NCBI GenBank assembly: GCA_913055635.1
Contig: CAJXLK010000018.1
Coordinates: forward strand, 1-64,000
Origin: an uncultured Bacteroidota bacterium
GTDB lineage: Bacteria; Bacteroidota; Bacteroidia; Bacteroidales; UBA12077
Reading direction: 5' to 3'
DNA: 64,000 bases
A model generated the notes under the pieces. The model did not search any database and was not told the DNA's origin. It was given only the letters and a program-made list of their open reading frames with translations. Positions 3,163 through 41,737 of this stretch are shown here, piece by piece. Made by a program: the position numbers and the translations under genes. How positions within the stretch are numbered: position 1 is the first letter of the stretch; each line of letters starts with the position of its first letter.

Positions 3163-4644
3163 TTAATACTGGGAGAGGATTTTACGAAAACGGGCATTGG
3201 GATAAATCCCTTCCTCATCCTCAGAGTATTCGGGTTTTATTCGGTTGACAAAGTACATGTCAATATCTTCAGCATTGTTTTTGATCTTTATTTTTCCCCG
3301 GTAAGTGCAATCAAAATAATCCTTGATGTAATCATAGGTAGCCCCTGAGACATTGACTTTACCTGTCTGGCTGGTTTCTTCCATTCTACTGGCAATGTTA
3401 ACGGTATTGCCCCAGATGTCATAGGCAAATTTTTTGGATCCGATCACCCCGGCCATGACCCGGCCGGTATGAATGCCCAGCCGCAATTTCCATGGCCGTT
3501 CGCCCCAGGCCGTTTTTACCTGGGCCAGATCGCTGACAAATTTCTGGATTTGCAAACTGGCCAGGGTCACGTCGAAAGGATTGCTGTAATTTTTAAGGGG
3601 CAGCCCACCGGCACACATGTAGGCATCCCCCATGGTCTTTATCTTTTCAAGATAGTGGTTTTCAATGATTTCATCGAACTTACGCACGTACCGGTTGAGT
3701 TCAGTGATCAGTTCGTCTACTGTCATGGTTTTGGTCAGGGTGGTGAAATTTTCAAAGTCAGCAAACAGCACGGTCACCATCTTGTATTTTTTTGATTTAG
3801 CCCGCCCTTTGCGTTTCAATTGTTCGGAGATCTCATGGGGGAATAGGTTGGCCAGCAATTCCTCCGTTTTCTTCTTTTCTGCATAGAAGCGGGAAATATC
3901 CGTTTCCACGGCTACAATCCGGTTCAGGTTCCCGTTATCGTTATGTAGGGGGGTAAGGGTGGTCTGGACCCATTTATAGTCCCCTGAGTGGGCCTGTATC
4001 TGATGCTCCACGGTGAGCCCTTCCTCTCCATGGGCAAATTGATCGAGGGCCCACTGAAAGCCCTCGCTGTTTGGAGAATAAATATAGTGGCCGAATGTTT
4101 GGATATACTCATCAAAGGAGCAACCGTAGATTTGCTCAAATCCTCCGTTCACACTTTCCGCCTTTCCATCGGGATATAAACGGATCACTGCATTGGTGGA
4201 ACTTTCAATTTCGGGGGGATCACTGACCAATTCATGCCGTTCGGATGCCGGTTGAGGTGTTTGCTGATGCTGATGGCGCTTGCTCAGGGTTTTGAGCCGG
4301 TATAGCAACTCTTGCTTGTCTATGGGTTTGAGAATGAAATCGGATATCCCAATATCCAGTAATTTGGGGAGTTTTTCCTGTTCCGGATTATCCGAGAGAA
4401 AAATGATCGGGATTTGCTCGGATTGACGTCTTTCAACCATTCGACGAACGTTCTCTAGCCCTTCCCGGTAAATCACTGACGAATCCAACAGGATATAATC
4501 AGGCTTTAAATCGGGAAACCCTTCCATGCTTTCCGTCTCATGAACCACCTGGAGGTTGAATGAACCCCCGAGTTGGCCCTTTAAATGACTGATCTGATGT
4601 TCAAGCTCATCCGATCGACTGATGATGAGAATCCGGTTGATCAT
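3163..4644 (-). CDS. class III adenylate cyclase with receiver and PAS domains
   Basis: The 493-aa cytoplasmic signalling protein has three parts. Residues 1-120 are a receiver domain with phospho-acceptor D54 (ILLD), acidic D12/E13 and K106 (ILKP). Residues about 150-255 are a PAS domain with a PAC-like end (VAVETDISRFYAEKKK). Residues about 285-465 are a class III cyclase domain. Metal-binding aspartates D296 (LFADFENF) and D340 (KTMGDAYM) are present, as are transition-state residues N416 and R420 (NTVNIASRM). The purine-selecting pair is K336 and D409, the combination found in adenylate rather than guanylate cyclases, so ATP to cAMP is the likely reaction. No cognate kinase lies next to it. 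A palindrome array lies upstream of the start. Confidence 0.9.
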   Translation of the reverse strand: MINRILIISRSDELEHQISHLKGQLGGSFNLQVVHETESMEGFPDLKPDYILLDSSVIYREGLENVRRMVERRQSEQIPIIFLSDNPEQEKLPKLLDIGISDFILKPIDKQELLYRLKTLSKRHQHQQTPQPASERHELVSDPPEIESSTNAVIRLYPDGKAESVNGGFEQIYGCSFDEYIQTFGHYIYSPNSEGFQWALDQFAHGEEGLTVEHQIQAHSGDYKWVQTTLTPLHNDNGNLNRIVAVETDISRFYAEKKKTEELLANLFPHEISEQLKRKGRAKSKKYKMVTVLFADFENFTTLTKTMTVDELITELNRYVRKFDEIIENHYLEKIKTMGDAYMCAGGLPLKNYSNPFDVTLASLQIQKFVSDLAQVKTAWGERPWKLRLGIHTGRVMAGVIGSKKFAYDIWGNTVNIASRMEETSQTGKVNVSGATYDYIKDYFDCTYRGKIKIKNNAEDIDMYFVNRIKPEYSEDEEGIYPNARFRKILSQY

Positions 4645-4961: not shown

Positions 4962-5411
4962 TTAGAAATAGCTCAGGAGTTTCTCCAACCGGAGGCGGTG
5001 GTTTTTTTCGTGTTCAGCCATTTGATCAAAAAGTTGCTGTAATTCCTGGTCCTGAACCTGGCCGGCAATTTTCAGGTAAAGTTTTTCGGCGTGGGTTTCC
5101 TCGTTGATGGCAGATTGGAAGATCGCCTTTAGGGTTTGGGTGTTGAAGGGCCTGGTCGGGCGAACCATCAGATCCGCTTTAACGGATACCGGGGCTGGAA
5201 AGTTGGCGCGATGATAATGCTCCCGCATGGCTTTTAGTCGACTAATATGGCCCGTCTCTTCCCGAGACAATTGTTTAAATGTTTGTTTGTATTCAAGGGT
5301 TTCAGAGCGTGAAGCAAGGGAATTATAGAGTTCAACGGCTTTTTCCTCTTCGCTGATCAGCAAATCAAATACATCATTATAATTGCTGAAAGTCAGATAT
5401 TTTTGTGGCAT
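4962..5411 (-). CDS. ferritin-like (rubrerythrin-type) diiron protein
   Basis: The 149-aa all-helical protein fits a four-helix ferritin-like fold. Candidate diiron ligands appear in the expected order: SEEEKAVELY in helix 1, REETGHISRL in helix 2, INEETHAEKLY in helix 3 and AEHEKNHRLRLE in helix 4. There is no rubredoxin Cys4 domain, so this is the rubredoxin-free class (COG1633-like) and not a full rubrerythrin. Members are linked to oxidative stress or iron handling, but the reaction is not established. The start MPQKYLTFSN is 59 nt from the divergent receiver gene. A TAATTTTG (-7-like) element on the minus strand at 5438-5431 could drive it, without a clear -33 box. Confidence 0.8.
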   Translation of the reverse strand: MPQKYLTFSNYNDVFDLLISEEEKAVELYNSLASRSETLEYKQTFKQLSREETGHISRLKAMREHYHRANFPAPVSVKADLMVRPTRPFNTQTLKAIFQSAINEETHAEKLYLKIAGQVQDQELQQLFDQMAEHEKNHRLRLEKLLSYF

Positions 5412-5470: not shown

Positions 5471-5824
5471 ATGAAGATATTAATTGCTGAAAACAGCGAG
5501 TTAACGGGCTTTCTGGTTAAATCCGTTTTGGAAAGTCAGGGCCATCAGGTGACCCTGGTTCTCGATGGATTGTCCACCTTCCGTCAATTACACACCGAGT
5601 CATATGATCTGGTTATTTCGGAGGTGCTGCTTCCTTATTACACGGGTTTGGAAGTTCTACAGATGATCAGGAAAAATTCAGGCCATGCCAAAACCATCAT
5701 CCTCTCAACGGTTCAGAATCTCAATACCGTTTACCAGGCCTATCAGATGCAGGTGGATTTGTATATGACCAAGCCGTTTGATCCGGATCGGCTGCCGCAG
5801 GAAATTGAAAAAATTAAAATTTGA
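5471..5824 (+). CDS. stand-alone receiver domain with Glu at the phospho-acceptor site
   Basis: The 117-aa protein has only a CheY-like receiver fold and no output domain. The frame is open further upstream, but ATG at 5471 (MKILIAENSE) gives the correct first beta strand. The normal Asp at the end of beta 3 is Glu: the segment reads VISEVLLPYYTG with E51 in that place. The acidic pair after beta 1 is E7-N8 instead of two acidic residues. S79/T80 and K101 (MTKPFDP) are kept. The protein may therefore act as an unphosphorylated or permanently on-like receiver. Its TGA overlaps the ATG of the next gene (TGATG), which indicates translational coupling to the polysaccharide operon. Confidence 0.8.
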   Translation: MKILIAENSELTGFLVKSVLESQGHQVTLVLDGLSTFRQLHTESYDLVISEVLLPYYTGLEVLQMIRKNSGHAKTIILSTVQNLNTVYQAYQMQVDLYMTKPFDPDRLPQEIEKIKI

Positions 5825-6768
5825 TGAGAAGGTTGACTTTTTTGTTGATTTTATGGGGGATTTGGATTTGTTTGGGAGATGGGGCATTCGCTGAAGGTTT
5901 TGGCAATGGGGCCAGTAGAGTCGGGATAAATCGGCCCTGTGCAGCATGCTTTCCTTGCTTCTCGGGGTCAGGCCCTGACGGGTCTGATTTTATCTCTCCG
6001 GTTGATACTGTGGATGAGGCGGATCGCCCGTTCATTGTTATGGACCGTACAGGTCTGGTGCATCACTTTAGTTTTTTTAACCTACCCTGGGTTCGGCGCT
6101 GGCACGTGCTGTCTTTGCGGAATGAGCTGAATATGGCCGGCTGGCCCCTGGTGGGAGTGATCAATTATGGCCGGTTGATGGGGGCTCCTGAGCCCGGCCT
6201 TTCAGCAGCCAACTGGCAGTTTCAGCTTGAGGCCTATCCCCGGCTATCCCCCGGCGATTATGTGCATCTTCTTGCAGCTTACAGCGAATCCCGTCTTTTT
6301 CCCCATCATCACTACGGGGGCGAATGGTTTCACAGTTTTGGCCATGGTCTGGAGGCTTCTGCCGGCATGAGATGGATGGAGTGGGGGCCATCCATATGGT
6401 TCTATACCGGTTCCCTGGCAAAATATACCGGCAATTACTGGTTCTCTTTTCGTCCCTATATAACCCGCCAAAATGGAAATACCGGTCAAACATACAGCCT
6501 TGCTGCCCGCCGGTATGGGGCAACACCCCAAAACTACCTTGGAGTGAAGCTCCTCTATGGGACCTCGCCCGAGTACCTCTCTTATGTGGTGGATTATCCC
6601 GACATAAAAACCCTCAAAGGATATGGGGGCTATCTGAGCTTTCAGCAATCCTGGAATCATTGGATTGTCAAAACAGTGGTGGGATACCGACGGGAAGAAT
6701 TTAGCACAGACCGCTTCCGGGGCCATTTCACCTCACAGTTGCATCTATTGTATCAATTGAACCGCTGA
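5824..6768 (+). CDS. YaiO-family outer-membrane beta-barrel protein
   Basis: The 314-aa protein has a signal peptide (MRRLTFLLILWGIWICLGDG, cleaved after AFA) and a C-terminal half built of aromatic barrel strands. The run YTGSLAKYTGNYWFSFRPYI and the flanking GEWFHSF are what I recognise from YaiO-type barrels; the last strand ends in LLYQLNR. In Bacteroidota such barrels often accompany a HEAT-repeat protein and a family 2 glycosyltransferase, as here, so a role as outer-membrane exit for an extracellular polysaccharide is inferred. An unusual Cys-rich segment (CAACFPC) lies near residue 40. ATG at 5824 overlaps the previous stop by one base, and the stop overlaps the next start in the same way. 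Confidence 0.7.
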   Translation: MRRLTFLLILWGIWICLGDGAFAEGFGNGASRVGINRPCAACFPCFSGSGPDGSDFISPVDTVDEADRPFIVMDRTGLVHHFSFFNLPWVRRWHVLSLRNELNMAGWPLVGVINYGRLMGAPEPGLSAANWQFQLEAYPRLSPGDYVHLLAAYSESRLFPHHHYGGEWFHSFGHGLEASAGMRWMEWGPSIWFYTGSLAKYTGNYWFSFRPYITRQNGNTGQTYSLAARRYGATPQNYLGVKLLYGTSPEYLSYVVDYPDIKTLKGYGGYLSFQQSWNHWIVKTVVGYRREEFSTDRFRGHFTSQLHLLYQLNR

Positions 6769-8081
6769 TGTTGATCAAACACCCATTCCTCACCCTTATC
6801 ATGCTTCTGGGCATGATTTATTCAACGCCTGCCTGTCACCCACATCTGTCAGGCGGGGTAACGCTTTCGTCGACAACAACCTTTATGCTAAACCGGCCGG
6901 AAGGCACCGCCGATGTTGCCAGGCAACAACCTTCCCCAAAAAAAGAGGGACTTTTTGATCGCATCAAGCAAAGCATATATAGCCAGATTGAGCGCTATTC
7001 AAAAGATCCCTTTGTAAAGAAGTCCCTATTCTACCGCTTTGTACCGCTTTTTGTGGTCCTGATGTTCGCTTTCATTATTTCCATCGTAACCATTATGCTG
7101 GTGGTGCTGGTTGTTAAATTGCGCCGGTACCGGCAAAATAAAAAATGGCAGCGGATATGGCACCTTTACCGCCATATCCTGATCCGCTACCTCACCCACA
7201 ACCCCGAGGAAGAGGTCCCGGATTTTCCCGGTCTCAACAAGGCTACCCATAAGAAAGTCTTGATCCGCCAACTTTATCAGTTGGCCAATGATATATATGG
7301 ACGCAAACAACTTAAACTGCAGCACGTTTACGAGACTAAAAAACTTCATGGTTTTATTATCCGGAAAATACGCAGAGGAACCTCGGTGGAACGTACCCTT
7401 TATCTAAAGTACCTTTCCATTCGCCCGTTCAAAACGGGTCCCGCCCAAAAACTTTTTAAATTTGTCCGAATCGCTAATCCCCGGGTGAGGCTGTATAGCC
7501 AGCTGGCATTTATCAGTCAATACCCTTACCAGGCTTTCTCTTTCCTGGAGGATTATCCTTATTCCCTGACCGAATGGGAACAGTTGAATTTATATGCTTC
7601 CATGCTGCACAATTCCATCCCGATCCCCGAACTGTACCACTATCTGGATGCTTCCAACCCAACGGTAGTCATCTTTACCCTGCGGATGATCCGATGGTAT
7701 TATGTCATGCCGAAGGATCGGGAAAGGCTGCTTCAACTGATCGACCATCCGGGAGGTCAAATCAGGCTGGAAGCCTATAAAACCATTGTAGAATTGAATA
7801 TGAAGGCAGTGGGCGATGTCTTTCGTTACCATTACCTAAACGAAACCACCGAAGTAAAAAAAGTGATGGTGGACTATTTTGTGAAAAACAAACAGTTGAC
7901 CCGGGAAATCTATCAGCCTGTCCTGGAGTTGGAAACCGACCCGGAGATGGTGTTTTACCTGTTGGAGGCTTTGTATAACCAAAATTATAAAAGTCAGCAG
8001 GAAGTGGTTGCCATGAGGGATGAAACCCGTGATTCAACTGTTTATTCGATGTGTCAGCATATTATTGAAAATGCCTATTAA
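6768..8081 (+). CDS. HEAT-like repeat membrane protein of the polysaccharide operon
   Basis: The 437-aa protein starts with a hydrophobic signal or anchor (residues 5-20, followed by PAC, a possible but poor lipobox). A short polar linker follows, then a strong membrane helix at about 85-110 (VVLMFAFIISIVTIMLVVLV) followed by a basic stop-transfer. Residues about 150-437 are helical repeats of HEAT character (for example DHPGGQIRLEAYKTIVELN and the next two repeats), probably on the cytoplasmic side. It sits between the barrel and the glycosyltransferase, sharing TGATG with the former and 14 nt from the latter, so a scaffold or regulatory part in the synthesis complex is likely. No enzyme motif is seen. 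Confidence 0.65.
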   Translation: MLIKHPFLTLIMLLGMIYSTPACHPHLSGGVTLSSTTTFMLNRPEGTADVARQQPSPKKEGLFDRIKQSIYSQIERYSKDPFVKKSLFYRFVPLFVVLMFAFIISIVTIMLVVLVVKLRRYRQNKKWQRIWHLYRHILIRYLTHNPEEEVPDFPGLNKATHKKVLIRQLYQLANDIYGRKQLKLQHVYETKKLHGFIIRKIRRGTSVERTLYLKYLSIRPFKTGPAQKLFKFVRIANPRVRLYSQLAFISQYPYQAFSFLEDYPYSLTEWEQLNLYASMLHNSIPIPELYHYLDASNPTVVIFTLRMIRWYYVMPKDRERLLQLIDHPGGQIRLEAYKTIVELNMKAVGDVFRYHYLNETTEVKKVMVDYFVKNKQLTREIYQPVLELETDPEMVFYLLEALYNQNYKSQQEVVAMRDETRDSTVYSMCQHIIENAY

Positions 8082-8095
8082 CGGAGAGAAACCAG

Positions 8096-9532
8096 ATGAG
8101 GGAATTTTTGCAGGTTTTCACCTTTATTGTAGATCATTTGATTTTGATTTATTCGGTAGCCATAACGGGTTCCTACCTTATTTTGGGGGTGGTTTCGGGG
8201 TTTTATCTGACCCGGTATATGAGGGGAACCCGGGCCGACGACTATTCCAGGATCATCAATTCTCCGCTTGCCCCGGAGGTTTCAGTTATTGCTCCCTGTT
8301 ACAACGAGGCCAAAAGCATTGTCGCCAATATACGGGCCCTGCTCAACCTGCACTATAACAACTATGATGTAATTGTCGTCAATGACGGCAGCACCGATGG
8401 AAGCCTTCAGCAGGCGATTGAAGCCTATGAACTGAAGCAAGTCAGCTATTATGTCAACGAACGGTTGGAAACACGCCCTATACGCGCTATTTATCGTTCC
8501 ACCAACAAAGCTTACCACAATTTGACGGTGGTCGATAAAGTCAATGGTGGCAAATCAGATGCTTTGAATGCCGGGTTGAATTTGTCCAACAAATCGTATG
8601 TGGTTTGCATGGATGTTGACTCCATTATTGAGCATGATGCCCTGCTGAAGTTGGCCCAGCCTTTTCTGAAGCAGGGGAAAAAGAAACTGATCGCTGTCGG
8701 AGGTGTGGTCCATGTGGCCAATTCTTGTAAGATAGAGAAGGGGCGGCTCATAAAAAGACGTGTTCCCCGGGGGTTCCTGGCCCGCGTTCAGGTCATTGAA
8801 TATGCCCGTGCCTTTTTGATTGGGCGTATTTCCTGGAGCCATATGAATGGATTGTTGATCATTTCCGGGGCCATTGGCATGTTTGACCGGGAAGCGCTGG
8901 TGGGATGCGGGGGCTACCTGACCAAAACCGTGGGCGAAGATATGGAGTTGGTGGTGCGTATGAGGCGATATTTATACGAAAAAGGGATCAAACACCAGGT
9001 GATTTATCTGCCGGATCCCCTCTTATGGACCGAAGTACCCTCAGGCAGAAAAACACTGGGGCGTCAGCGCAACCGCTGGACCCGCGGTACCATGGATAGC
9101 CTTTTCATGCATACCCGGTTGTTTTTCAATCCCAAATATGGCTCCCTGGGCATGCTCGGTTATCCTTACTGGTTTTTCTTTGAATGGCTGGCCCCCATTG
9201 TAGAAGTGTTGGGTTTTATCTATTTTTTAACCATGGCCCTGATCGGTGCCATCAACTGGCCCCTGTTTTTGACCATTTTACTTTTTATTTATCTGTTTGC
9301 CCTGTCTTTTTCCTTTTTCTCCATCCTTTATGATGAGCTCACCTTTCATCCTTACCAGTCGTTGCGGGAAAACTTCAGGCTTTTTTTGGTGGCCATGGCT
9401 GAGCCTTTTATCTATCATCCCCAGGTGGTTTACTGGAGCATTCGGGGCAATATTTCTTATCTAAGGGGATACCGCAAGTGGGGTGACATGAGGCGAACAG
9501 GCTTTTATTCCGGGGAGGATGCACTGGCTTAA
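8096..9532 (+). CDS. processive family 2 glycosyltransferase (PgaC/IcaA-like)
   Basis: The 478-aa inner-membrane enzyme has one N-terminal helix (15-38), a cytoplasmic GT-A domain and about three C-terminal helices (360-425). Catalytic motifs are complete: nucleotide-binding NDGSTDG (D97), metal-binding D173-V-D175, the TED-like TVGED at 278-282, and QRNRW at 324-328, the Q-x-x-R-W signature of processive synthases. Poly-beta-1,6-GlcNAc or cellulose-type synthases share this set, and the length is like IcaA/PgaC. It would polymerise an NDP-sugar and move the chain through the membrane. No deacetylase is encoded beside it. It is the last gene of the four-gene operon; a purine-rich GGAGAGAAA precedes the start. 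Confidence 0.85.
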   Translation: MREFLQVFTFIVDHLILIYSVAITGSYLILGVVSGFYLTRYMRGTRADDYSRIINSPLAPEVSVIAPCYNEAKSIVANIRALLNLHYNNYDVIVVNDGSTDGSLQQAIEAYELKQVSYYVNERLETRPIRAIYRSTNKAYHNLTVVDKVNGGKSDALNAGLNLSNKSYVVCMDVDSIIEHDALLKLAQPFLKQGKKKLIAVGGVVHVANSCKIEKGRLIKRRVPRGFLARVQVIEYARAFLIGRISWSHMNGLLIISGAIGMFDREALVGCGGYLTKTVGEDMELVVRMRRYLYEKGIKHQVIYLPDPLLWTEVPSGRKTLGRQRNRWTRGTMDSLFMHTRLFFNPKYGSLGMLGYPYWFFFEWLAPIVEVLGFIYFLTMALIGAINWPLFLTILLFIYLFALSFSFFSILYDELTFHPYQSLRENFRLFLVAMAEPFIYHPQVVYWSIRGNISYLRGYRKWGDMRRTGFYSGEDALA

Positions 9533-9688: not shown

Positions 9689-11377
9689 CTATTGGGCATC
9701 TATCCGGATTACCTTTTTCCCGGTGAAGGTTCTTCCATATCGGTCGCTAACTTCCACCTCAAGGGTGTGGCTGCCTGAAGGCAAATTACCCGGAAGCTCA
9801 CCGGTCCAGAGGTGAGTGGAGGCCTGAGGCTGCGGCAAATCCTCTCCGGGCAGGGGGAAGCCGGTTTGTTCGGTGGCTTGCTTCCACCTTTCCCTTAATC
9901 CCAGCTTCCTGAAATTATTCCAGCGTCGGTTGAGTTTTGCATAGAAGGGATCAACCCGGTTTACTTTTTGCATGGACTGCCATTGCCCCGTTTTATTTAT
10001 CCGGTAACGGACCCGGCTTTGTTGGGTACCGTTGAAAAAGTTCACCGTAAAGTTTTTATCTGCGGTGGAGCCTTCTGCCAGATCGCGGGGGACATAAATG
10101 TTCATCCGGTGAGATGAACCGCTGCCGGCCACTTTCCAGTCAATGGTATAGTCGTTGTTGCGTATGGTCAACACGGCGTACCCGTTGGGCGTACCATCTC
10201 GCATCATGGTGTGAGGGATGTTCGTCTCACCCTTGATCCCGGTCCACCAGCTGCCGGAAGTGGTCCCTACATTATAATGGTGATGAGGCTTGGCCTGCCG
10301 CCACCGGCTTGAATCACGGTGGAAGAAAAGGTTGTCCTGTACATGGGTGTGCGCCGAGATAGAGAGGGTATGGGGGTAATCCCCCAGCAGGTCAAACAGC
10401 CGCTGCTGATCTTCCTGGCGGAACCGATCCCCCTCCCTGGCCAGGGGTATGTGCATGTTTAAAACAATCAGATGATCTTTGGGGACGGTTTGAAGGTAAT
10501 TTTTTACAAACTTCAGCTGATCATCCCTCAATCCCCCCACGTATTCACGGGAACCGCTTTTGGCCTCATGGATGATGTCATCAAGAATGATGAAATGGGC
10601 CCTTCCATAAACAAAGGCATAAGTAGCCGGGCCGTAAACCCGCTCAAACGTTTCATCAGACATTTTGTCGCTGGCCGCCTGGTAGTTGATGTCATGATTG
10701 CCCATGACATGATACCACGGGATCCCCACCTGAGCCACCGCCTGGTTAACCTCTCTGAACAGGGGAAGGGTATCTCCCACAATATCGCCCATGGTGATGC
10801 CAAAGCTTAGGTTGTCACTTGCAATAAGCTCGCTGACAATGTCTTCGGCAAAATAATCCACCTCTCGACTGCTATAGGGTTGGGGATCTCCCAAAACCGC
10901 AAAGCGGAATTGGGGGGATTCGTCATGGCGGTGCAGGGGAAAATTGACCCTTTCCGGCAAGGGCCCGGTTGGACTTACCCCCCGGTATTTGAAATTTTTC
11001 GGCGATCCCCCGGGCTTATGCAGGTAATAAAATCGGGGCAGGTTGAGCGAATTGACTGGCGTCATCCAGTTGCCCGGCTTGATGACAAAAACCGGGTTGT
11101 CATCTCCCACCGGCAACCCGTAATGCCCCTGCTGGTCGGTTACCACGACATCTGTGCCGTTGGATACGGCTACTCCTGCTATTCCGGATTCACCTTCATC
11201 CTTTTCCTGATTGCGGTTTTGATCGTGGAATACATAGCCTTCCACCTGCTTTTCTCCCTTCTCCGGTGCTATATGCGAGGCAATGCCCGATTCGGATGCA
11301 CCGTTTTGTTTGTTGCCACTGCATGCCGCCAGCATAATGAAAGTGACCACCGGGATCAATAAAGACCAGCTTTTCAT
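9689..11377 (-). CDS. calcineurin-like phosphoesterase lipoprotein
   Basis: The 562-aa protein is exported as a lipoprotein (lipobox MLAAC, Cys19). After the linker comes a beta-sandwich domain (about 40-140, VEGYVFHDQNRNQEKDEGE) of the SdrD-B/MetallophosN kind. The metallophosphatase core runs from about 155 to 390, with metal motifs LGDPQPY, MGDIVGD, MGNHDIN, LNMHIPL and SAHTHVQ. A C-terminal beta domain (about 400-562, MetallophosC-like) completes the architecture found in Bacteroidota surface phosphoesterases. The first motif has Gln where many relatives have His (D-P-Q). The substrate is unknown. It starts 11 nt after the UPF0182 gene and is probably co-transcribed with it. Confidence 0.85.
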   Translation of the reverse strand: MKSWSLLIPVVTFIMLAACSGNKQNGASESGIASHIAPEKGEKQVEGYVFHDQNRNQEKDEGESGIAGVAVSNGTDVVVTDQQGHYGLPVGDDNPVFVIKPGNWMTPVNSLNLPRFYYLHKPGGSPKNFKYRGVSPTGPLPERVNFPLHRHDESPQFRFAVLGDPQPYSSREVDYFAEDIVSELIASDNLSFGITMGDIVGDTLPLFREVNQAVAQVGIPWYHVMGNHDINYQAASDKMSDETFERVYGPATYAFVYGRAHFIILDDIIHEAKSGSREYVGGLRDDQLKFVKNYLQTVPKDHLIVLNMHIPLAREGDRFRQEDQQRLFDLLGDYPHTLSISAHTHVQDNLFFHRDSSRWRQAKPHHHYNVGTTSGSWWTGIKGETNIPHTMMRDGTPNGYAVLTIRNNDYTIDWKVAGSGSSHRMNIYVPRDLAEGSTADKNFTVNFFNGTQQSRVRYRINKTGQWQSMQKVNRVDPFYAKLNRRWNNFRKLGLRERWKQATEQTGFPLPGEDLPQPQASTHLWTGELPGNLPSGSHTLEVEVSDRYGRTFTGKKVIRIDAQ

Positions 11378-11388
11378 ATTGAGGGGAT

Positions 11389-14262
11389 TTAATATTTTGT
11401 GGTATCGGCCTGTGCCGTTTGCTCTTTGAGTTTTTGAAGGGTTTGCTGCAAGTTTTTAAGGGCGCGGGAGGCCTGGTCAAACTGTTGATCGCCCATATTG
11501 CGCAGGTAATCCTTTAGATACTGGTCGGCATCCTGGATGAGTTGTTGGTTTTGCAGGGTTTTTCCAGGTTGCTCCTGTTCAGGGGCCTCTTCCTGTTTTT
11601 CTTCAGCGGCTTCAGTGATTTGCTTAACGGGTTCGCCGGCAAAGATGCCTTCCAGGGCTTTGTCAAAGGTTTCGGCGTAACTCAGGTTATCGCCATGCAT
11701 GATGGCCACCAACCTTAATTCTGGATAAGCGGCCGTTTCGCTTTGGAGGTAGATGGGCTCTACATACATCATCGTCTCGCCGACGGGAATGGCCAGCACA
11801 TTGCCGCGGATTACATTCGAGCCCCTTTGGTCCCAAAGGGTGAGCTGACTGGAGAGTTCAGCATCCTGGTCGATTTTGGTTTCTACCTGTTGGGGGCCCA
11901 GGATCCGCTTCTCCTTGGGAAATTTGTAAGCCATGAAACGCCCGTAGTCCTTGCCATCACTCAATCCGGCAATCCACCCGATCAATACCTGACGGTTTTT
12001 GGGGGTGAACGGCAGCATCAGGGTGAACTCGGATTCATCCGATTGGGGGCGTTCCCACATGATGTAGTAAGGATCCACCGGTTTAATGGTGTTGTGGTAT
12101 TTCTCAGTGGCCCTGACCCATAGGTCCTCCTGATTATAAAAGACAGTGGGATCGGTCATGTGGTACTTGGCATAGACCATCCCCTGGACCAACAACTTGT
12201 CGATGGGATAGCGCACATGCTTTTGTAAAGCCTCGGGCATTTGGCCCTTATCTTTGAACATGCCCGGAAAGATTTGATCCCATACCTGGATGATGGGATC
12301 CTTTTGGTTGTAAACATAGTAGCTGATATCGCCATCGAAGGCGTTGACCACCACTTTCACCGAATTGCGCATGTAATTATCCCCGTGCATGTAGCTGGCT
12401 ACGTTGTTAACCAACTGCCGGTCTTGTTCTCCTTCGGAGTAATCGATGACTTCCCGCGAATTATAGGGTTCGCTATAGGGGAAGGAGTTGGATGTGGTAT
12501 AAGCATCGATGATCCAGTATAGTTTTCCGTTGGCCAGCACCGGGTAGGGGTCGCGGTCGAATTTTAAGAAGGGGGCCACCTTTTTAATGCGCTGGCTAAT
12601 CTGGCGGTTGAACATCAGCCGGCTGCTGCGGTCGGGATAGCTGGAGAAAAAGAATTTGGTGCCGTCAAATTTCCAGCCATACAGGAACTTTCGCCAGAGA
12701 TTGGACAACTCGACCCCGCCGCTTCCCTGATAATTGGTGTATACATTTTTTTCACCGCTGGGATAGTCGAATTCCTCGGTGGCGGAATTGGCGATCACAT
12801 GCGTTCGGGTGGCTTCCCCATAATATATCTGGGGTTGATCGACTTCCAGTTCCGGGTATTTGCTCACCGGAGGAATGTCTTTAACCAACATGTTGGGCAA
12901 TCCGTTTTGGGTGAACTCATTGACCCTGGTCAGGGTGATGCCGTAGCCGTGGGTGTATTTGAAACGTTTGTTGACAAAGGTCTGGCTCTTATCGGGCAGG
13001 TTGTTCAGTTCCATTTCCCGGGCCGAGACCATCACCTGCTGATATTGATTGTTGAAGGTATAGCGGTCCATGTCAACGTCTTCAAATTCATAGTAGAGCC
13101 GTATCTCCTGGAACTGGTTGTATACCTGCAGCAGGGCACTCCAGTCCCACAGACGGATGTTCGAAAAAACGCTTTGATTGTCCTGAACGGTTTGCCGGGT
13201 GAAATCCCCCTTCATCGGATACTGGCGTTCTTCAATGTCATCCAGCTCAAAGGCCTGTCGGGTGAGTTGGATGTTGTTTTCAATGTAGGGCTTTTCCATG
13301 GAGATTTCATTGGGCTCGACCACCAGGGCCTGAAAAGCACTGGGAATAAGAACGATGAAAAGCAACCACACCACCAGGATTCCCCCGAACAGACTGCCAA
13401 ATACACTGGGCACCAGGTTGTAGTTTTGCATCCGGAAGCGTTTGAAATAGTTTATTAACCTGCGGCGGGTGAAAGGAAGGAAGAAGAAAAGGCCCACCAA
13501 CAACGTGATGATGGCCGAGACGGTGTACCCGGGCATGCGCACATGAATATCGGTCCAGCCTGGGCCGGAAACAGCGCCCCAGTCAGAGAAAAGCAAATCG
13601 TAGCGGGCAATAAACTTCTGCAACCCCAGGATGATGAAAAACAATGATCCGGCAATGACAAGGGCTCGTCCGATTTTAACCCCCTGAATGTTCATGTCTT
13701 CCAGTGAAACCGACCCCTGCTGATTGTCCTGAGAGTAGAGCGACAAAAGCATGGCCGCAATGGAGATGATCAAAATAACAATCAAAAAGGTGAACAATTC
13801 TTTGTAGAAGGGCAACATGAACATATAGAAAGAGGCATCGCGCTGAAGTACGGGTTCTATGATGCCCGATTCAACCGAGTTGAAAAATTGAAGGATGACC
13901 TCCCAGTTGGAATGGCCCCAGATGCCACCAAAAAGGAGGGCAATGGCCAAACCCAGGTACCGGAAAAAAACATTGCGCTTGTCGATGCTCGCGGTGAAAC
14001 CGTAAACCAAAAGCCCGGCCAATACCAGGCCCAGAACAATCAGCCCTGCTTTGGTGCCAATCTCGATCCAAAACCGCTGGGCAAAGCCCAGGGACTCAAA
14101 CCAAAGCTTTTCACCCCAAAAAGACATGAACCAAAAGGCCACCAGGGTGAAGGCTAAAATGGCCGCTCCGGTGATGATGTTTTTTCTCTTATTTTTTCGC
14201 GCTCCAAAATAGATGAAGCGGATGCCAAAAAATATCAGAATCAGAATGATGATCGTATACAT
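11389..14262 (-). CDS. UPF0182 family integral membrane protein
   Basis: The 957-aa protein has about seven membrane helices in residues 1-320, including MYTIIILILIFFGIRFIYFG, AAILAFTLVAFWFMSFW and TKAGLIVLGLVLAGLLVYGF. A large soluble part of about 550 residues follows, with the family's typical segments LWDWSALLQVYNQFQEIR, KYTHGYGITLTRVNEFTQ and YPIDKLLVQGMVYAKYHMTD. The end is a charged Gln/Glu-rich helix. Length and order match UPF0182 (COG1615), a family of unknown function found in cyanobacteria, actinobacteria and Bacteroidota. The phosphoesterase lipoprotein follows after 11 nt, so the two may act together at the envelope. Confidence 0.9.
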   Translation of the reverse strand: MYTIIILILIFFGIRFIYFGARKNKRKNIITGAAILAFTLVAFWFMSFWGEKLWFESLGFAQRFWIEIGTKAGLIVLGLVLAGLLVYGFTASIDKRNVFFRYLGLAIALLFGGIWGHSNWEVILQFFNSVESGIIEPVLQRDASFYMFMLPFYKELFTFLIVILIISIAAMLLSLYSQDNQQGSVSLEDMNIQGVKIGRALVIAGSLFFIILGLQKFIARYDLLFSDWGAVSGPGWTDIHVRMPGYTVSAIITLLVGLFFFLPFTRRRLINYFKRFRMQNYNLVPSVFGSLFGGILVVWLLFIVLIPSAFQALVVEPNEISMEKPYIENNIQLTRQAFELDDIEERQYPMKGDFTRQTVQDNQSVFSNIRLWDWSALLQVYNQFQEIRLYYEFEDVDMDRYTFNNQYQQVMVSAREMELNNLPDKSQTFVNKRFKYTHGYGITLTRVNEFTQNGLPNMLVKDIPPVSKYPELEVDQPQIYYGEATRTHVIANSATEEFDYPSGEKNVYTNYQGSGGVELSNLWRKFLYGWKFDGTKFFFSSYPDRSSRLMFNRQISQRIKKVAPFLKFDRDPYPVLANGKLYWIIDAYTTSNSFPYSEPYNSREVIDYSEGEQDRQLVNNVASYMHGDNYMRNSVKVVVNAFDGDISYYVYNQKDPIIQVWDQIFPGMFKDKGQMPEALQKHVRYPIDKLLVQGMVYAKYHMTDPTVFYNQEDLWVRATEKYHNTIKPVDPYYIMWERPQSDESEFTLMLPFTPKNRQVLIGWIAGLSDGKDYGRFMAYKFPKEKRILGPQQVETKIDQDAELSSQLTLWDQRGSNVIRGNVLAIPVGETMMYVEPIYLQSETAAYPELRLVAIMHGDNLSYAETFDKALEGIFAGEPVKQITEAAEEKQEEAPEQEQPGKTLQNQQLIQDADQYLKDYLRNMGDQQFDQASRALKNLQQTLQKLKEQTAQADTTKY

Positions 14263-31340: not shown

Positions 31341-31379
31341 AAGATCATCTGTACTGATAAATCCTTCAAAAAGTTGTCT

Positions 31380-33761
31380 ATGTTCAGCAATTACCTAAAA
31401 TCTGCCATCCGTCATCTTAAGAAATATCGATTTTATACCATCATTAATGTCACCGGTCTGGCCATTGGCCTGGCCGCTTCCATTCTCTTGTTCCTGTATA
31501 TTCGTTTCGAGTTGAGCTACGACACTTTTCACCAGGGGCATGAACAGATTTATCGCATTGTTTCCCATGTAGAAAGGCCGGGAGGCAAGTCCATGGTGGT
31601 CCCGCGCACTTTGGCCAAAGTATCAGGAGCAATGAAAAGGGAGATACCGGAAGTCACCGAAACCAATAAGCTCTATGAAGATGAGGTGACCTTGATAGAC
31701 CAGAAGGAGCATATGTATCCCGACATCGAGCTGATGTATACGGATTCTTCTTTTTTCGAGGTGTTTTCTTTTAAAGTACACCAGGGCGAGGGAGCTACTG
31801 CACTAAGCACCCCTGGAGAAGTGGTGATCACCCGTTCACTGGCCAGCCGGTATTTTGGCAGTGAAGATCCCATTGGGAAGGAGATACGGCGAAAAACGAA
31901 GCGTTATACAGTAGGGGCTGTGCTTAAAGATATACCCGCCAACTCCCATTTTGACTTCGACATGCTGACCAGTTTTAAGACCATGGAGCATCCCGAACGG
32001 TTTATGGAACAACATGGTTGGGATTTTTTCACCTATTTTCGTGTTAAACCCGGTGTGCAGAAACAGGAATGGGCCGGTGAAGTCCAAAGCCTGGCCAACC
32101 GCATAGGGACCAACATGATGCAGGAGATTGGTTCTGAGGGAGCTTTCGATGTGCAGACCCGGGTTCAGCCATTGACCCGCATCCACCTTCATTCCGGGTA
32201 CAATTTTGATATCGACCCCCAGGGCGACATCAACACCATTTATATCTTTTCTTTCCTGGCAGCTTTCATACTGGTTATCGCCATCGTCAATTTTGTCAAC
32301 CTGGTCACTGCCCATGGTGAGTACCGTTCTCGTGAGATGGGGATGCGCAAGGTACTGGGTGCCCGCAGGAAATCTCTGATTATCCAACACCTGCTGGAAT
32401 CATTTGTGGTGGTTTTTGGGGCCCTGATCATCTCACTGGTGTTGGTGAACTGGCTGGCCGATCCTTTGGGCAACCTGTTGAACAGTGAGCTGGTGATCGA
32501 CTGGATAAATCCATCGTTTATACTGTCTCTGGTTGGTTTTGCTGTTTTGGTGGGGCTAATGGCCGGTTCCTACCCGGCGTTCTATCTTTCCCGATTCGAT
32601 CCGGTGAAAATTTTCAGCCGCACAGGAAGCCGCGGCACCCGGAACAGAACGCTGCAGATTGGCCTGGTGGTGGTGCAGTTTGGCATTGCCATCTTCCTGA
32701 TCACCTCGCTGATCATCCTGCGTGATCAACTCAACTATTTGAACAACAAAGAACTGGGGGTAAACCAGGAAAACATCCTGGTGATTCAGAATGTTACCGG
32801 CGATATCCGCGAGAGTTACCAAGCCCTCAGAGAAGAGTTAATGCAATACCCCTCCATTCAGGAAGTCACCGCTTCGGTAAGCTATCCGGGCGCCGGCCGG
32901 GCAGTGCAGACGGCTAAAAAAGCGGAGGATCCCTCTTCCGAATCCATCGTCATTCAGGAAAATCGGGTGCAGGATCACTATGTGCAAACCTATGGGATTG
33001 AAATGGTTAAGGGCCGAGACTTCCGCCAGGAACTGGCCAGTGACAGTACCGGTTTTATTCTTAACCAACAGGCTGTTGATAAGTTGGGCCTGAGCCATCC
33101 TATCGGCAAACAGATAGAAGTTTTTCAGCAAAAAGGGCAAGTCATCGGGGTGATGAAAGATTTTCACTTCCGCTCGTTCCACCATCAAATCGAACCCCTG
33201 GTGCTTTCTCATTACTACGATTATTTTCAAAACATATCTGTTAAAATGGACATGCGCAATGTTTCGGCAACATTGGACCATGTTCGCCAGGTGATTGATG
33301 AGTTTGATTCACAGTATTATTTCAGGTATACTTTTATTGATGATGTGTTTGCTCAGCTGCACCAGCAGGAGCGGCAAACCAACAAGATGATCATGGCCGG
33401 TTCGGTCCTGGCTATCTTTCTGGCCATTCTCGGGCTTTTTGCCCTGAGCTCCTTCACGGTGGTTAAGCGTAGCCGGGAGATCGCCATCCGTAAGGCCATG
33501 GGGGCCTCTTACCACCGGGTGGTTCGCCTGCTGCTGATCGATATCCTCAGATGGGTTGTACTGGTCAACGTGCTGGCCTGGCCCGCCGCATGGTATTTTA
33601 TGAACGGCTGGCTGCAGAATTTTGCCTACCGCATCGAGCTCCAGGTATGGATGTTCCTGCTGGGTGGGCTCATTGCACTGGGCATCGCCGGGTTAACCAT
33701 TAGCGCTCAAACTATTCGGGCTGCCGCTGTCAACCCCGCCCACAAACTCAGAGATGAATGA
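31380..33761 (+). CDS. double FtsX/MacB-type ABC permease (tandem copy 1)
   Basis: The 793-aa inner-membrane protein is two MacB-like halves in one chain. Half 1 has TM1 at about 19-42, a periplasmic domain (45-275), and three helices to about 400 with the coupling motif REMGMRKVLGAR. Half 2 repeats the pattern: a helix near 425, a periplasmic domain, then REIAIRKAMGAS and the last helices, ending in NPAHKLRDE. ATG 31380 is used, not the TTG two codons earlier. FtsX-type permeases of this class move lipoproteins, peptides or drugs, or pass mechanical force, driven by a separate ATPase; none is encoded beside it. A sigma-54-like site lies upstream. It is the closest relative of the next gene and has the same length. 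Confidence 0.88.
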   Translation: MFSNYLKSAIRHLKKYRFYTIINVTGLAIGLAASILLFLYIRFELSYDTFHQGHEQIYRIVSHVERPGGKSMVVPRTLAKVSGAMKREIPEVTETNKLYEDEVTLIDQKEHMYPDIELMYTDSSFFEVFSFKVHQGEGATALSTPGEVVITRSLASRYFGSEDPIGKEIRRKTKRYTVGAVLKDIPANSHFDFDMLTSFKTMEHPERFMEQHGWDFFTYFRVKPGVQKQEWAGEVQSLANRIGTNMMQEIGSEGAFDVQTRVQPLTRIHLHSGYNFDIDPQGDINTIYIFSFLAAFILVIAIVNFVNLVTAHGEYRSREMGMRKVLGARRKSLIIQHLLESFVVVFGALIISLVLVNWLADPLGNLLNSELVIDWINPSFILSLVGFAVLVGLMAGSYPAFYLSRFDPVKIFSRTGSRGTRNRTLQIGLVVVQFGIAIFLITSLIILRDQLNYLNNKELGVNQENILVIQNVTGDIRESYQALREELMQYPSIQEVTASVSYPGAGRAVQTAKKAEDPSSESIVIQENRVQDHYVQTYGIEMVKGRDFRQELASDSTGFILNQQAVDKLGLSHPIGKQIEVFQQKGQVIGVMKDFHFRSFHHQIEPLVLSHYYDYFQNISVKMDMRNVSATLDHVRQVIDEFDSQYYFRYTFIDDVFAQLHQQERQTNKMIMAGSVLAIFLAILGLFALSSFTVVKRSREIAIRKAMGASYHRVVRLLLIDILRWVVLVNVLAWPAAWYFMNGWLQNFAYRIELQVWMFLLGGLIALGIAGLTISAQTIRAAAVNPAHKLRDE

Positions 33762-33795
33762 GACCGCCCCATAACAACCCCCGGTAAAGATTTTA

Positions 33796-33854
33796 ATGAA
33801 ACCCACATGCAAAGCCTTACAAAACAAGGCTATCAATAAAGCATTTGGGTCCAT
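33796..33854 (+). repeat. 59-nt inverted-repeat element, copy a
   Basis: It starts ATGAAACCCACATGC and ends GCATTTGGGTCCAT, so the ends can pair imperfectly. The middle has CCTTACAAAACAAGG, the conserved centre of the family. Read from its ATG the frame is open for 27 codons (MKPTCKALQNKA...), longer than the element. It lies in the leader of permease copy 2. Confidence 0.8.
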
Positions 33855-33952
33855 GGTGAGCTTTTTCGATAAGAATTGATCCTGGTGGAATACTATACGG
33901 AAATAAGTCTTTATCCAAATGAAGTCTTTAATATAAGCATATTCCAAAGAAC

Positions 33953-33968
33953 CGTTCGATATCGAACG
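33953..33968. promoter_or_regulatory. 16-bp perfect palindrome, possible activator site
   Basis: CGTTCGATATCGAACG equals its own reverse complement over 16 bases. It ends 87 nt upstream of the sigma-54-like promoter at 34056, a usual distance for an NtrC-type upstream activating site. Confidence 0.4.
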
Positions 33969-34055
33969 CAGCCCGTATTCATACCGAACACCTTTCCGCA
34001 GTCATTTATTTTGCTTTTTGTTTTAAATGTTTGTTATTCTGATTTTTATGGCATA

Positions 34056-34070
34056 TGGCATGTTAATTGA
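34056..34070 (+). promoter_or_regulatory. candidate sigma-54 promoter of permease copies 2 and 3
   Basis: TGGCATGTTAATTGA has GG and GA ten bases apart and differs from the site at 31075 at only two positions. The start codon lies 45 nt downstream, a normal leader length. Confidence 0.5.
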
Positions 34071-34114
34071 GCAAAATTTTAAATGATGTGAGAGAACCTT
34101 TCAAAAAAGGATTT

Positions 34115-36496
34115 ATGTTCAGGAATTATTTTAAATCTGCCCTTCGCCATCTGAAAAAAAACCGTTTTTTTACCGCCATTAATATCACCGGCCTGGCCAT
34201 TGGTCTGGCCGCCTCCATATTGCTTTTCCTGTATATCCGTTTTGAACTCAGTTATGACAGGTTTCACCAGCATCATGAGCAGATTTACCGCGTCGTTTCG
34301 CATGTGCAAAGGCCTGAGGGCAAGTCTGTGCTGGTACCCCGAACCCTTCCGGCGGTATCAAAAACCATCAAACGCGATATACCTGAAGTCGTTCAGTCCT
34401 GCAGGATTTACCCGAAAGAAGTAACCCTGCGGGATAACGAGGATCACCTTTTTCCGGATGTCGAGTTTTTTTACACGGATTCATCCTTTTTTGATCTGTT
34501 CTCCTTTGAAGTTCATCGAGGAGACGGGCCGTCTGCTTTGAGAACCCCTGGCCAGGTCGTCATTACCCGCTCACTGGCAAAACAATATTTTGGCGACCAG
34601 GACCCACTGAACCGTGAAATTCTCAGGGAAGGCAAAAGTTATACTGTGGGGGCTGTACTGGAGGATATTCCCGCCAACAGCCATTTCGACTTTGACCTGC
34701 TTACCGGTTTTCATACCATGAAGCATCTGGAGTATTTTATGGAGCGCCAGGGGTGGAATATGTTCACCTATTTCCGGGTTAGGCCTGGAAGCGAGCGGTC
34801 AGTATGGGGTTCAAAGGTCAGTGAATCGGCCAATCAGGTCAGTGCAAGTGCCATGCAGGATATGGGAGGGGACGGGGCCTTTGATGTGGAAACCCGCTTG
34901 CAATCCCTCTCGCGGATCCATTTGCATTCTGACTATAATTTTGACATTGATCCCCAGGGGGACGTCCAGCGCATCTATATTTTTTCCTTTCTGGCTGCTT
35001 TTATACTGATGATCGCCCTGGTGAATTTTGTCAATCTGGTAACTGCCCATGGTGAATACAGGGCGCGTGAAGTGGGTATGCGCAAGGTGCTGGGAGCCCG
35101 CCGCAGGTCACTGATCAAACAGCATCTGCTGGAGTCTTTTGTGATGGTTTTCTTTGCCACGCTCATCTCCCTGGTCCTGGCCGAAGGCCTTGCTTCTCCC
35201 CTGGGCAAACTCCTGGGCAGTGAACTGGCGATTGACTGGCTGAATCCCTGGCTGATTTTTGGTTTGATCGGCTTTGTCCTATTGGTAGGACTAATTGCTG
35301 GTTCCTATCCAGCTTTCTATTTATCCCGTTTCAACCCGATAAAAATATTCAGCCAAACAGCCAGTCAGGGTTCCCGCAAACGGACCCTTCAGGTTGGGCT
35401 GGTGGTGGTTCAGTTCGGCATTGCCATATTCCTGATCACCTCGCTGATCATCCTCCGGAGTCAACTCAATTACCTCAGCGACAAAGATCTGGGTGTAAGC
35501 AAAAACCACGTTTTGGTAGTAAAAGAAATCACCGCACCCATCCGTCAAAGTTATTCAGCCATCCGGGAGGAGCTGATCAAACACCCCTCCATACAATCTG
35601 TAACTGCCTCGTTTAGTGTTCCCGGTATGAACCGTCCATTACAGACGGCCCGCAAAACACAGGATTCCCCCGATGAATCCATTGTTATCCAGGAAAACCG
35701 GGTTCAGGATCATTACCTGGAGACCTACGGCATTGAGCTGGTTAAGGGAAGAGGTTTCAATCCAAAGATGGCCACCGACAAGACCAGCTTCATCCTCAAT
35801 CAGCAGGCAGTGGACAAGCTTGGCCTGAGCCGGCCCATCGGAAAAGAGATCGTGGTGTTTAAGCAGAAAGGCCAGATCATTGGGGTGATCAATGATTTTC
35901 ACTTCCGTTCTTTCCACCACCAGATAGATCCCCTGGTGCTGACCCATTACAGCAGTTATTTTAACCATCTCTCCATCCAGACTCATATGCAGGATTTTCC
36001 GGCCACACTTCAACATGTGCGCCAGACCCTTCAGGAGTTCGATTCTGGCTATTATTTCAAATATACTTTTCTGGATGAAATTTTTGCCCAACTGCATCAG
36101 CAGGACAAACAGACCAACCAACTGATTATGTATGGTTCCCTGTTGGCGATTTTTTTGGCCCTTTTGGGATTGTTTGCCCTGAGCTCTTTGACGGTGGTTA
36201 AGCGAAGCCGTGAGATCGCTGTTCGCAAAGCAATGGGAGCCACCTATCAAAGAGTGGTGCGCCTGTTGCTCAGCGATATCCTTAGATGGGTGGTTTGGGT
36301 CAATATACTGGCCTGGCCGGCAGCGTACTTTTTTATGAATGACTGGCTGCAGAATTTTGCCTATCGCATCGACCCCCAACTCTGGATGTTTTTGGGGGGT
36401 GGTGCGATTGCCCTGCTTATTGCCGGTTTAACCATTTCTGTTCAAACCCTGCGCGCCGCCGCAGTGAACCCGGCCGAAAGATTGCGCGACGAGTAA
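34115..36496 (+). CDS. double FtsX/MacB-type ABC permease (tandem copy 2)
   Basis: The 793-aa protein is the paralogue of the preceding permease: same length, same domain order, with long identical stretches such as NITGLAIGLAA versus NVTGLAIGLAA and SREIAVRKAMGA versus SREIAIRKAMGA. Eight helices and two periplasmic domains are expected. ATG 34115 (MFRNYFKSALRHLKK) aligns with the start of copy 1; the frame is open upstream only via a TTG. The C-terminus is NPAERLRDE. The next permease follows after 19 nt, so copies 2 and 3 are probably co-transcribed from the sigma-54-like site. The pair looks like a recent duplication. Confidence 0.88.
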   Translation: MFRNYFKSALRHLKKNRFFTAINITGLAIGLAASILLFLYIRFELSYDRFHQHHEQIYRVVSHVQRPEGKSVLVPRTLPAVSKTIKRDIPEVVQSCRIYPKEVTLRDNEDHLFPDVEFFYTDSSFFDLFSFEVHRGDGPSALRTPGQVVITRSLAKQYFGDQDPLNREILREGKSYTVGAVLEDIPANSHFDFDLLTGFHTMKHLEYFMERQGWNMFTYFRVRPGSERSVWGSKVSESANQVSASAMQDMGGDGAFDVETRLQSLSRIHLHSDYNFDIDPQGDVQRIYIFSFLAAFILMIALVNFVNLVTAHGEYRAREVGMRKVLGARRRSLIKQHLLESFVMVFFATLISLVLAEGLASPLGKLLGSELAIDWLNPWLIFGLIGFVLLVGLIAGSYPAFYLSRFNPIKIFSQTASQGSRKRTLQVGLVVVQFGIAIFLITSLIILRSQLNYLSDKDLGVSKNHVLVVKEITAPIRQSYSAIREELIKHPSIQSVTASFSVPGMNRPLQTARKTQDSPDESIVIQENRVQDHYLETYGIELVKGRGFNPKMATDKTSFILNQQAVDKLGLSRPIGKEIVVFKQKGQIIGVINDFHFRSFHHQIDPLVLTHYSSYFNHLSIQTHMQDFPATLQHVRQTLQEFDSGYYFKYTFLDEIFAQLHQQDKQTNQLIMYGSLLAIFLALLGLFALSSLTVVKRSREIAVRKAMGATYQRVVRLLLSDILRWVVWVNILAWPAAYFFMNDWLQNFAYRIDPQLWMFLGGGAIALLIAGLTISVQTLRAAAVNPAERLRDE

Positions 36497-36515
36497 ACTC
36501 AAAATACATCTTGCC

Positions 36516-38879: not shown

Positions 38880-38887
38880 CCGGGTTA

Positions 38888-39003
38888 CCCCCCGCTAAGC
38901 GGGGGGAACCAACGCGGGGAAAAATCCCCCCGCTTAAAACCACCCCGCTTAGCGGGGGGTAACCAATGATAGACCCCGCTAAGCGGGGTAAGTTCAAGCG
39001 GGA
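38888..39003. repeat. palindrome array 4 (three full, several half copies)
   Basis: Full cores lie at 38890-38904 (TAA centre, extended to six C and six G), 38943-38957 (TTA) and 38974-38988 (TAA). Half copies are seen at 38914, 38926-38936 and 38995. The array starts 8 nt behind the stop of permease copy 3. Confidence 0.93.
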
Positions 39004-39038
39004 TAAGTTCCATTTGATCAATAAACCAATATAATTAG

Positions 39039-39095
39039 ATGAACTCCACATGCAGGAACCGGTATAACGCTATGCATAAAGCATGGGGGTTCCAT
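39039..39095 (+). repeat. 57-nt inverted-repeat element, copy b
   Basis: It starts ATGAACTCCACATGC and ends GCATGGGGGTTCCAT. This is the most diverged copy in the middle, but the ends still pair. The frame from its ATG stays open for 40 codons. It lies about 80 nt before permease copy 4. Confidence 0.65.
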
Positions 39096-39172
39096 GGCAG
39101 AGGTTACCGAGACCAACGAATTATTTGCTATTATTTTACTGAAATACAAGCTGTTAATTAAGCCATATCCGT

Positions 39173-41545: not shown

Positions 41546-41737
41546 TTTACTAAGTCTGCTCTAAACGTTTAAATGATTTCACCCTGGACAAAAACTTGTA
41601 AACCTGATGGGTATTACCCCAAGACATCAAACATGAACCATATTACTTGGAACACCATTGGTGGGATACCTGGAAAGGGTGAACCTGAGCTATTATGAAC
41701 CGGAAACCTGGTTAGAGGAAAAGAAAAAGATTTTTGC

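Follow-up and report, generated by a model that had tools for sequence, protein, structure and literature searches.

Exopolysaccharide synthases are known to be controlled mostly through cyclic di-guanosine monophosphate (c-di-GMP). The Bcs cellulose synthase, a processive enzyme of glycosyltransferase family 2 (GT2), carries a PilZ domain. In the PgaABCD system, which makes poly-N-acetylglucosamine (PNAG), the glycosyltransferase PgaC is accompanied by PgaA, which carries a porin barrel, by the deacetylase PgaB and by PgaD. PgaA also has a TPR domain, according to the title of PMC9384988. In the NfrB-NfrA-YbcH system of E. coli, one operon encodes a GT2 synthase and a TPR-barrel outer-membrane protein; the available part of PMC8669469 places the TPR region of NfrA before the barrel and gives NfrB as an example of c-di-GMP control. 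NfrB has an MshEN domain C-terminal to its glycosyltransferase domain. A further E. coli locus, YaiP-YaiX-YaiO with YaiS, holds the gene of the YaiO barrel close to the GT2 gene YaiP, along with genes for a deacetylase and for an acyltransferase that is disrupted in K-12. Here these systems are compared with a four-gene operon from an uncultured member of the Bacteroidales (UBA12077; assembly GCA_913055635.1, 4.08 Mb in 77 contigs, 99.31% complete). The operon lies in the first 64,000 nucleotides of contig 18 (CAJXLK010000018.1), a stretch called the window. Its genes are the following.

5471..5824, + strand: receiver (REC), 117 amino acids; ATG at 5471, stop TGA at 5822-5824
5824..6768, + strand: YaiO barrel, 314 amino acids; ATG at 5824, stop TGA at 6766-6768
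6768..8081, + strand: HEAT-type inner-membrane protein, 437 amino acids; ATG at 6768, stop TAA at 8079-8081
8096..9532, + strand: GT2 glycosyltransferase, 478 amino acids; ATG at 8096, stop ending at 9532

The first two genes share one base at 5824 and the second and third share one at 6768, and the glycosyltransferase gene follows after a gap of 14 nucleotides. The sequence thus confirms the coordinates of the four-gene operon that a first-pass annotation of the window had proposed.

The four genes are one conserved unit. The synthase-dependent class is recognized by a processive-type GT2 and an outer-membrane barrel in a conserved unit, both of which are found here. Going by sequences and predicted structures, it is reasonably likely that the operon is a synthase-dependent exopolysaccharide synthesis and export system.

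The likeness to PgaABCD lies in PgaC, the nearest glycosyltransferase found. A profile of the window's glycosyltransferase family scored PgaC at 105 bits and YaiP, which is farther away, at 40 bits, and did not report NfrB. The Nfr system is similar in its pairing of a GT2 synthase with an outer-membrane barrel in one operon, and the Yai locus in its YaiO gene beside a GT2 gene. Unlike PgaABCD, the window operon has no match to PgaB or PgaD; unlike NfrB, it has a HEAT-type protein and a receiver instead of MshEN. We infer that the system would work like Pga and Nfr, and it qualifies as a member of neither.

Going by titles and abstracts, with most subscription literature outside the search, no paper describing the operon was found, and mentions of YaiO mostly concern its use as a marker gene for E. 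coli. PMC12419801 does not concern the operon in its available part, and the words "YaiO" and "Bacteroidetes" are absent from the main text of PMC7112194. Searches of PDB structures gave generic glycosyltransferases, solenoids and barrels only, among the matches listed.

Conservation of the Four Genes

Related loci were collected by scanning contigs with the glycosyltransferase as query. The best 80 of 92 confirmed relatives, chosen by glycosyltransferase similarity, were read for gene order with family profiles (E ≤ 1e-3). The full order REC-YaiO-HEAT-GT is kept in 51 of these 80 loci, and a recount found it correct in all 51. The HEAT-type gene stands directly before the glycosyltransferase gene in 75. 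The order REC-HEAT-GT occurs with YaiO elsewhere in the stretch in 11 loci and without YaiO in the stretch in 6. The other arrangements are YaiO-HEAT-GT (4), HEAT-GT (2), HEAT-GT with YaiO elsewhere (1), REC-YaiO-GT (1), the glycosyltransferase with YaiO elsewhere (1) and the glycosyltransferase alone (3).

A receiver is present in 69 of the 80 loci, stand-alone in 67 and inside a longer protein in two (L024 and L055). Among the 11 loci that lack one, nine start at most 54 bases from the end of the available stretch, L090 and L091 being the exceptions.

Because the 80 loci had been picked by glycosyltransferase similarity, a survey of 296 genomes was added that sampled the phylum Bacteroidota evenly. 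The cut-offs were E ≤ 1e-60 for the glycosyltransferase profile and E ≤ 1.6e-28 for strong HEAT matches (the top 46); YaiO was defined by PF19413. The glycosyltransferase was found in 70 genomes and YaiO in 69, all of which also have the glycosyltransferase (Fisher p 2e-67). A single genome, G198, has the glycosyltransferase and no YaiO. The 46 strong HEAT matches fall in 40 genomes, every one of which carries the glycosyltransferase; four of the matches sit 1.06-1.70 kb from the glycosyltransferase match, in long HEAT proteins. YaiO lies within 6 kb of 66 of the 78 glycosyltransferase copies in these genomes, and a HEAT match within 1 kb of at least 54 of them, among the 60 HEAT matches listed.

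Conservation of the neighbourhood had been suggested as a check on the first-pass annotation, and separate occurrence of the genes in most relatives as what would speak against it. In both the 80 loci and the 296 genomes, the set is kept together.

L012 and L013 are the named loci nearest to the window; both come from metagenome-assembled genomes of Bacteroidales, and L012 appears to belong to a congener of the window genome, G003. Between the window and L012, replacement differences are fewer than silent ones in all four genes; the values of pN/pS, with silent sites near saturation, are 0.18/0.76 for the receiver, 0.33/0.71 for YaiO, 0.29/0.78 for the HEAT-type protein and 0.11/0.70 for the glycosyltransferase.

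Glycosyltransferase

The glycosyltransferase matches GT2 families of Pfam at 79.5 and 78.6 bits. Its best NCBIfam model is PgaC_IcaA (TIGR03937), at 130.6 bits and below the cut-off of 422.3. Residues D97, D173, D175, E281, D282, Q324, R325, R327 and W328 are invariant in all 27 aligned proteins. The motifs D, DxD, ED and QRxRW are likewise kept in 27 of 27, the last one reading QRNRW in the window copy. Hydrophobic segments stand at the N- and C-terminus, as read from the sequence only. No MshEN domain was found in the protein by Pfam up to E 1, and no PilZ domain appeared in the Pfam scan. By its sequence, the enzyme is PgaC-like and of the processive type within family 2.

PgaC/IcaA is the nearest NCBIfam model and PgaC the nearest of the three E. 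coli glycosyltransferases tested, which would fit a diverged PNAG system of the Pga or Ica type. Such a system would make the same polymer, with its deacetylase encoded elsewhere and YaiO replacing PgaA. The score, however, is far under the PgaC cut-off. No deacetylase or PgaD match was found in the four operon proteins, the rest of the genome not having been searched for deacetylases, and an LtaS-like phosphotransferase is the neighbour in part of the relatives. A diverged PNAG system thus appears unlikely. The first-pass annotation had called the operon unlike Pga and Bcs, and this stands: the PgaC cut-off is missed, the operon has neither PgaB nor PgaD, and its Pfam scan confirms that the four proteins have no deacetylase and no PilZ domain.

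The LtaS-like neighbour is a protein of about 670 residues from the sulfatase superfamily, matched by a small profile in 20 of the 80 loci, mostly beside the glycosyltransferase. In four of the 51 loci with the full order (L039, L042, L058 and L062) its gene lies in the 2 kb that separate YaiO from HEAT, and in L076 the domain is fused to the glycosyltransferase (1144 amino acids). Among the 78 glycosyltransferase copies of the survey, nine lie in open frames of 1135-1273 amino acids that the LtaS-like profile also matches. At E ≤ 1e-80 this profile finds 27 of the 296 genomes, all with the glycosyltransferase, and 27 of its 29 copies lie within 6 kb; it was built from operon-linked members, and this exclusivity is overstated. 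The GRTF and GDH residues are invariant in six of six LtaS-like proteins. This pattern, which we take to be that of the LtaS-type Thr nucleophile, suggests from sequence an LtaS-like protein using that nucleophile. The copy in L141 has C-terminal TPR repeats.

YaiO Barrel

The YaiO protein is matched by PF19413 at 128.2 bits (cut-off 23.9) and by TIGR04390 at 93.8 bits (cut-off 32), and has a signal-like helix at its N-terminus. Its predicted structure is a 14-strand barrel, with a predicted local distance difference test (pLDDT) score of 79. The model resembles the barrels of CymA, FadL and OmpG, with Z scores of about 17-20 and root-mean-square deviations of about 3-3.6. A PelBC exporter chain appears at rank 35 of the Foldseek list, with a template modelling (TM) score of 0.49 by query. 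The profile built from the YaiO alignment missed E. coli YaiO, PgaA and NfrA alike, so it cannot rank barrels; PF19413 does match E. coli among the control genomes.

Of 21 aligned YaiO proteins, 18 have TPR_19 ahead of the barrel, and no TPR family matches the YaiO of the window or of L012. The TPR loss is a derived state shared with one congener, L012. Thus the absence of TPR, which the first-pass annotation had taken as a mark of the system, is true of the window and L012 and does not extend to the YaiO family.

Another explanation is that the glycosyltransferase makes an envelope glycan or a lipid-linked sugar, with YaiO serving as an outer-membrane scaffold or sensor rather than an exit channel. 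The resemblance of the barrel to small-molecule channels favours this, as does the fact that YaiO is not near the glycosyltransferase for 12 of 78 copies. Yet YaiO is present in 69 of the 70 glycosyltransferase genomes, and its TPR region usually precedes the barrel, as the available part of PMC8669469 describes for NfrA. A scaffold or sensor role is held to be improbable, and YaiO as the exit of a synthase-dependent system is preferred.

HEAT-Type Membrane Protein

The third protein of the window operon has no Pfam match above cut-off and no NCBIfam family. HEAT_2 is found in 32 of 36 aligned relatives, and neither HEAT nor HEAT_2 matches the window copy itself. The predicted structure is an alpha-solenoid (pLDDT 86.7). 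The label "HEAT-like" given earlier is therefore right for the family and consistent with the window model.

A search of 59 relatives with the single HEAT sequence gave eight matches, own genome included. A profile replaced it because the HEAT protein diverges fast; the window copy is no outlier in divergence relative to its own glycosyltransferase. HEAT proteins of 693-866 amino acids with a long C-terminal extension stand before the glycosyltransferase in L096, L098, L099 and L100, and in L096 and L098 no family beyond HEAT was found in them.

The protein starts with an N-terminal signal or transmembrane segment and a short periplasmic part, followed by a membrane helix from near residue 87. 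In the model, a long helix (87-143) begins in a hydrophobic stretch, and a confident solenoid spans 159-434. Membrane topology can be read by the positive-inside rule. Because an Arg/Lys-rich stretch follows the hydrophobic part, the solenoid is read as cytoplasmic. The first-pass annotation had given the repeats a share in a path across both membranes. The predicted structure, together with the positive charges that follow the membrane helix, suggests a cytoplasmic position instead, and this part of the proposal finds no support. The part before the membrane helix contains SPOR in 3 of 36 relatives and LysM in 2 of 36.

Receiver and c-di-GMP

The first protein matches PF00072 (Response_reg) at 71.9 bits and is a stand-alone, CheY-like receiver with no output domain. 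In the window copy, Glu occupies the site where the phospho-accepting Asp is expected, and one position of the acidic pocket holds Asn. A set of 97 receivers (94 distinct) was collected, limited to proteins under 170 residues upstream of a HEAT match. Asp stands at the phospho-site in 93 of them and Glu in four (the window, L012, L014 and L128). L048, apparently from the congener G001, keeps Asp, and the Glu-for-Asp receiver, which one congener shares, is a derived state. Such a receiver probably stays in a single state or is recognized independently of phosphorylation.

A receiver without an output domain, whose Asp is missing in the window lineage, might be an unrelated passenger, or might control transcription through a partner and not the synthase. 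Against this, the receiver precedes HEAT-GT in the 17 loci that have no YaiO upstream of HEAT-GT, and it is still constrained without its Asp, being 71% identical between the window and L012 at the low pN given above. A passenger or transcriptional role is accordingly judged quite unlikely, and control of the synthase by the receiver is pursued below.

Nine neighbouring proteins of related loci were scanned for domains. Three of them, from L022, L055 and L081, are hybrid kinases or combine a kinase with a receiver: in L055 the kinase itself ends in the receiver domain, and in L081 one gene separates kinase and receiver. GGDEF-EAL proteins account for two (L128 and L129), another is the glycosyltransferase of L132 itself, and the protein from L082 has no match. 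An intact GGDEF motif is present in a neighbour in L128, L129, L130 and L133. In at least seven genomes (G102, G106, G203, G259, G275, G289 and G291), no more than about 3 kb separates a GGDEF match from the glycosyltransferase. The neighbours thus differ (receivers, kinases, GGDEF proteins), and we therefore see one synthesis and export core with different inputs.

The remaining two of the nine scanned proteins are receiver-GGDEF-receiver proteins without the GGDEF motif, encoded upstream of HEAT-GT (L123:2167-3954 and L126:1907-3532); the genomes of these two loci, G108 and G066, have one GGDEF match each.

The window genome has no GGDEF match (8 of 14 control genomes match) and no PilZ match (5 of 14 match). 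Among the genomes with the glycosyltransferase, GGDEF is found in none of the 32 from the window's class, a count that takes in the window genome itself and its order, and in 23 of the 38 from other classes. The earlier suggestion of a machine that does not use c-di-GMP thus fits the window genome and fails for the family as a whole, where 23 of 70 genomes have GGDEF, some of them beside the glycosyltransferase.

Proposed Mechanism

In the proposed mechanism, the PgaC-like glycosyltransferase would polymerize sugar at the inner membrane and thread the chain out. The chain would leave through the YaiO barrel in the outer membrane; in most relatives this barrel would have a TPR arm in the periplasm, and the window copy has none. 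The HEAT-type protein would belong to the synthase as a subunit in the inner membrane. Its solenoid would share the cytoplasm with the catalytic domain of the glycosyltransferase and with the receiver; where its periplasmic tail carries a peptidoglycan-binding domain (SPOR or LysM), as in a few relatives, that domain could fasten the machine to the cell wall. The receiver would dock on the solenoid and gate the glycosyltransferase post-translationally. In part of the relatives, the LtaS-like phosphotransferase may add a phospho-substituent to the chain. The first-pass annotation had likewise proposed a synthesis and export machine, and its conserved unit, PgaC-like enzyme and outer-membrane barrel are retained here.

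Several observations weigh against this mechanism. The system is patchy, being present in 70 of 296 genomes. For the 12 glycosyltransferase copies without YaiO nearby, the barrel is more than 6 kb off, on another contig or not found, and 24 of the 78 copies have no HEAT match within 1 kb, among the 60 listed. Twenty further loci were fetched, mainly exceptions and distant genomes. A HEAT match stands just before the glycosyltransferase in 17 of them, with most matches weak and two at just 13-14 bits; L126, L132 and L134 have no HEAT among the frames scored. No receiver was seen in eight of the 20 (L129-L134, L139 and L142). The structural matches of the modelled barrel are generic and uninformative on polysaccharide. 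Finally, the window receiver has no phospho-site Asp, and the E ≤ 1e-80 profile that matches 27 other genomes finds no LtaS-like protein in the window genome. A search of that genome with one relative's LtaS-like sequence also gave none, with no positive control. With no receiver Asp, no TPR and no LtaS-like protein found, the window copy may represent a system that has been reduced or modified.

As for control, we tentatively propose that in Bacteroidia a two-component receiver may switch the synthase directly through a wall-anchored HEAT adaptor, replacing PilZ, MshEN or PgaD and c-di-GMP. In distant lineages the HEAT-GT-YaiO core would run on GGDEF, and in the window's lineage the receiver would be fixed by its Asp-to-Glu change. 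If this is correct, a widespread operon would represent a second mode of control: its carriers in the window's class lack GGDEF, and a receiver and a HEAT-type protein would take its place. YaiO would then also have a likely function, that of a barrel for export. We infer that the regulatory make-up is new, and the mode of control is the interesting part.

Neighbouring Genes

The operon is flanked by the following genes.

3163-4644, - strand: receiver-PAS-class III nucleotide cyclase, divergent, upstream
4962-5411, - strand: rubrerythrin-family protein, divergent, upstream
9689-11377, - strand: calcineurin-like phosphoesterase (Metallophos), downstream, opposite strand
11389-14262, - strand: UPF0182 protein, downstream, opposite strand

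Neither the PgaB deacetylase nor PgaD is among these nearest flanks. The nucleotide cyclase was rejected as a part of the system. It gave 55 matches in the frames of related loci; among the 25 listed, only that of L012 has a near full-length score, and the rest resemble receiver matches. The UPF0182 gene has no match among those frames. In L012, whose receiver likewise has Glu and whose YaiO likewise lacks TPR, the cyclase and rubrerythrin pair again points away from the operon.

Farther along the window, five tandem genes at 31374-44104 (+ strand) encode MacB/FtsX-type permeases of 787-809 amino acids, with a mutual identity of 34-70%. A sixth paralogue, 30-33% identical to the five, lies at 61536-63920 (- strand).
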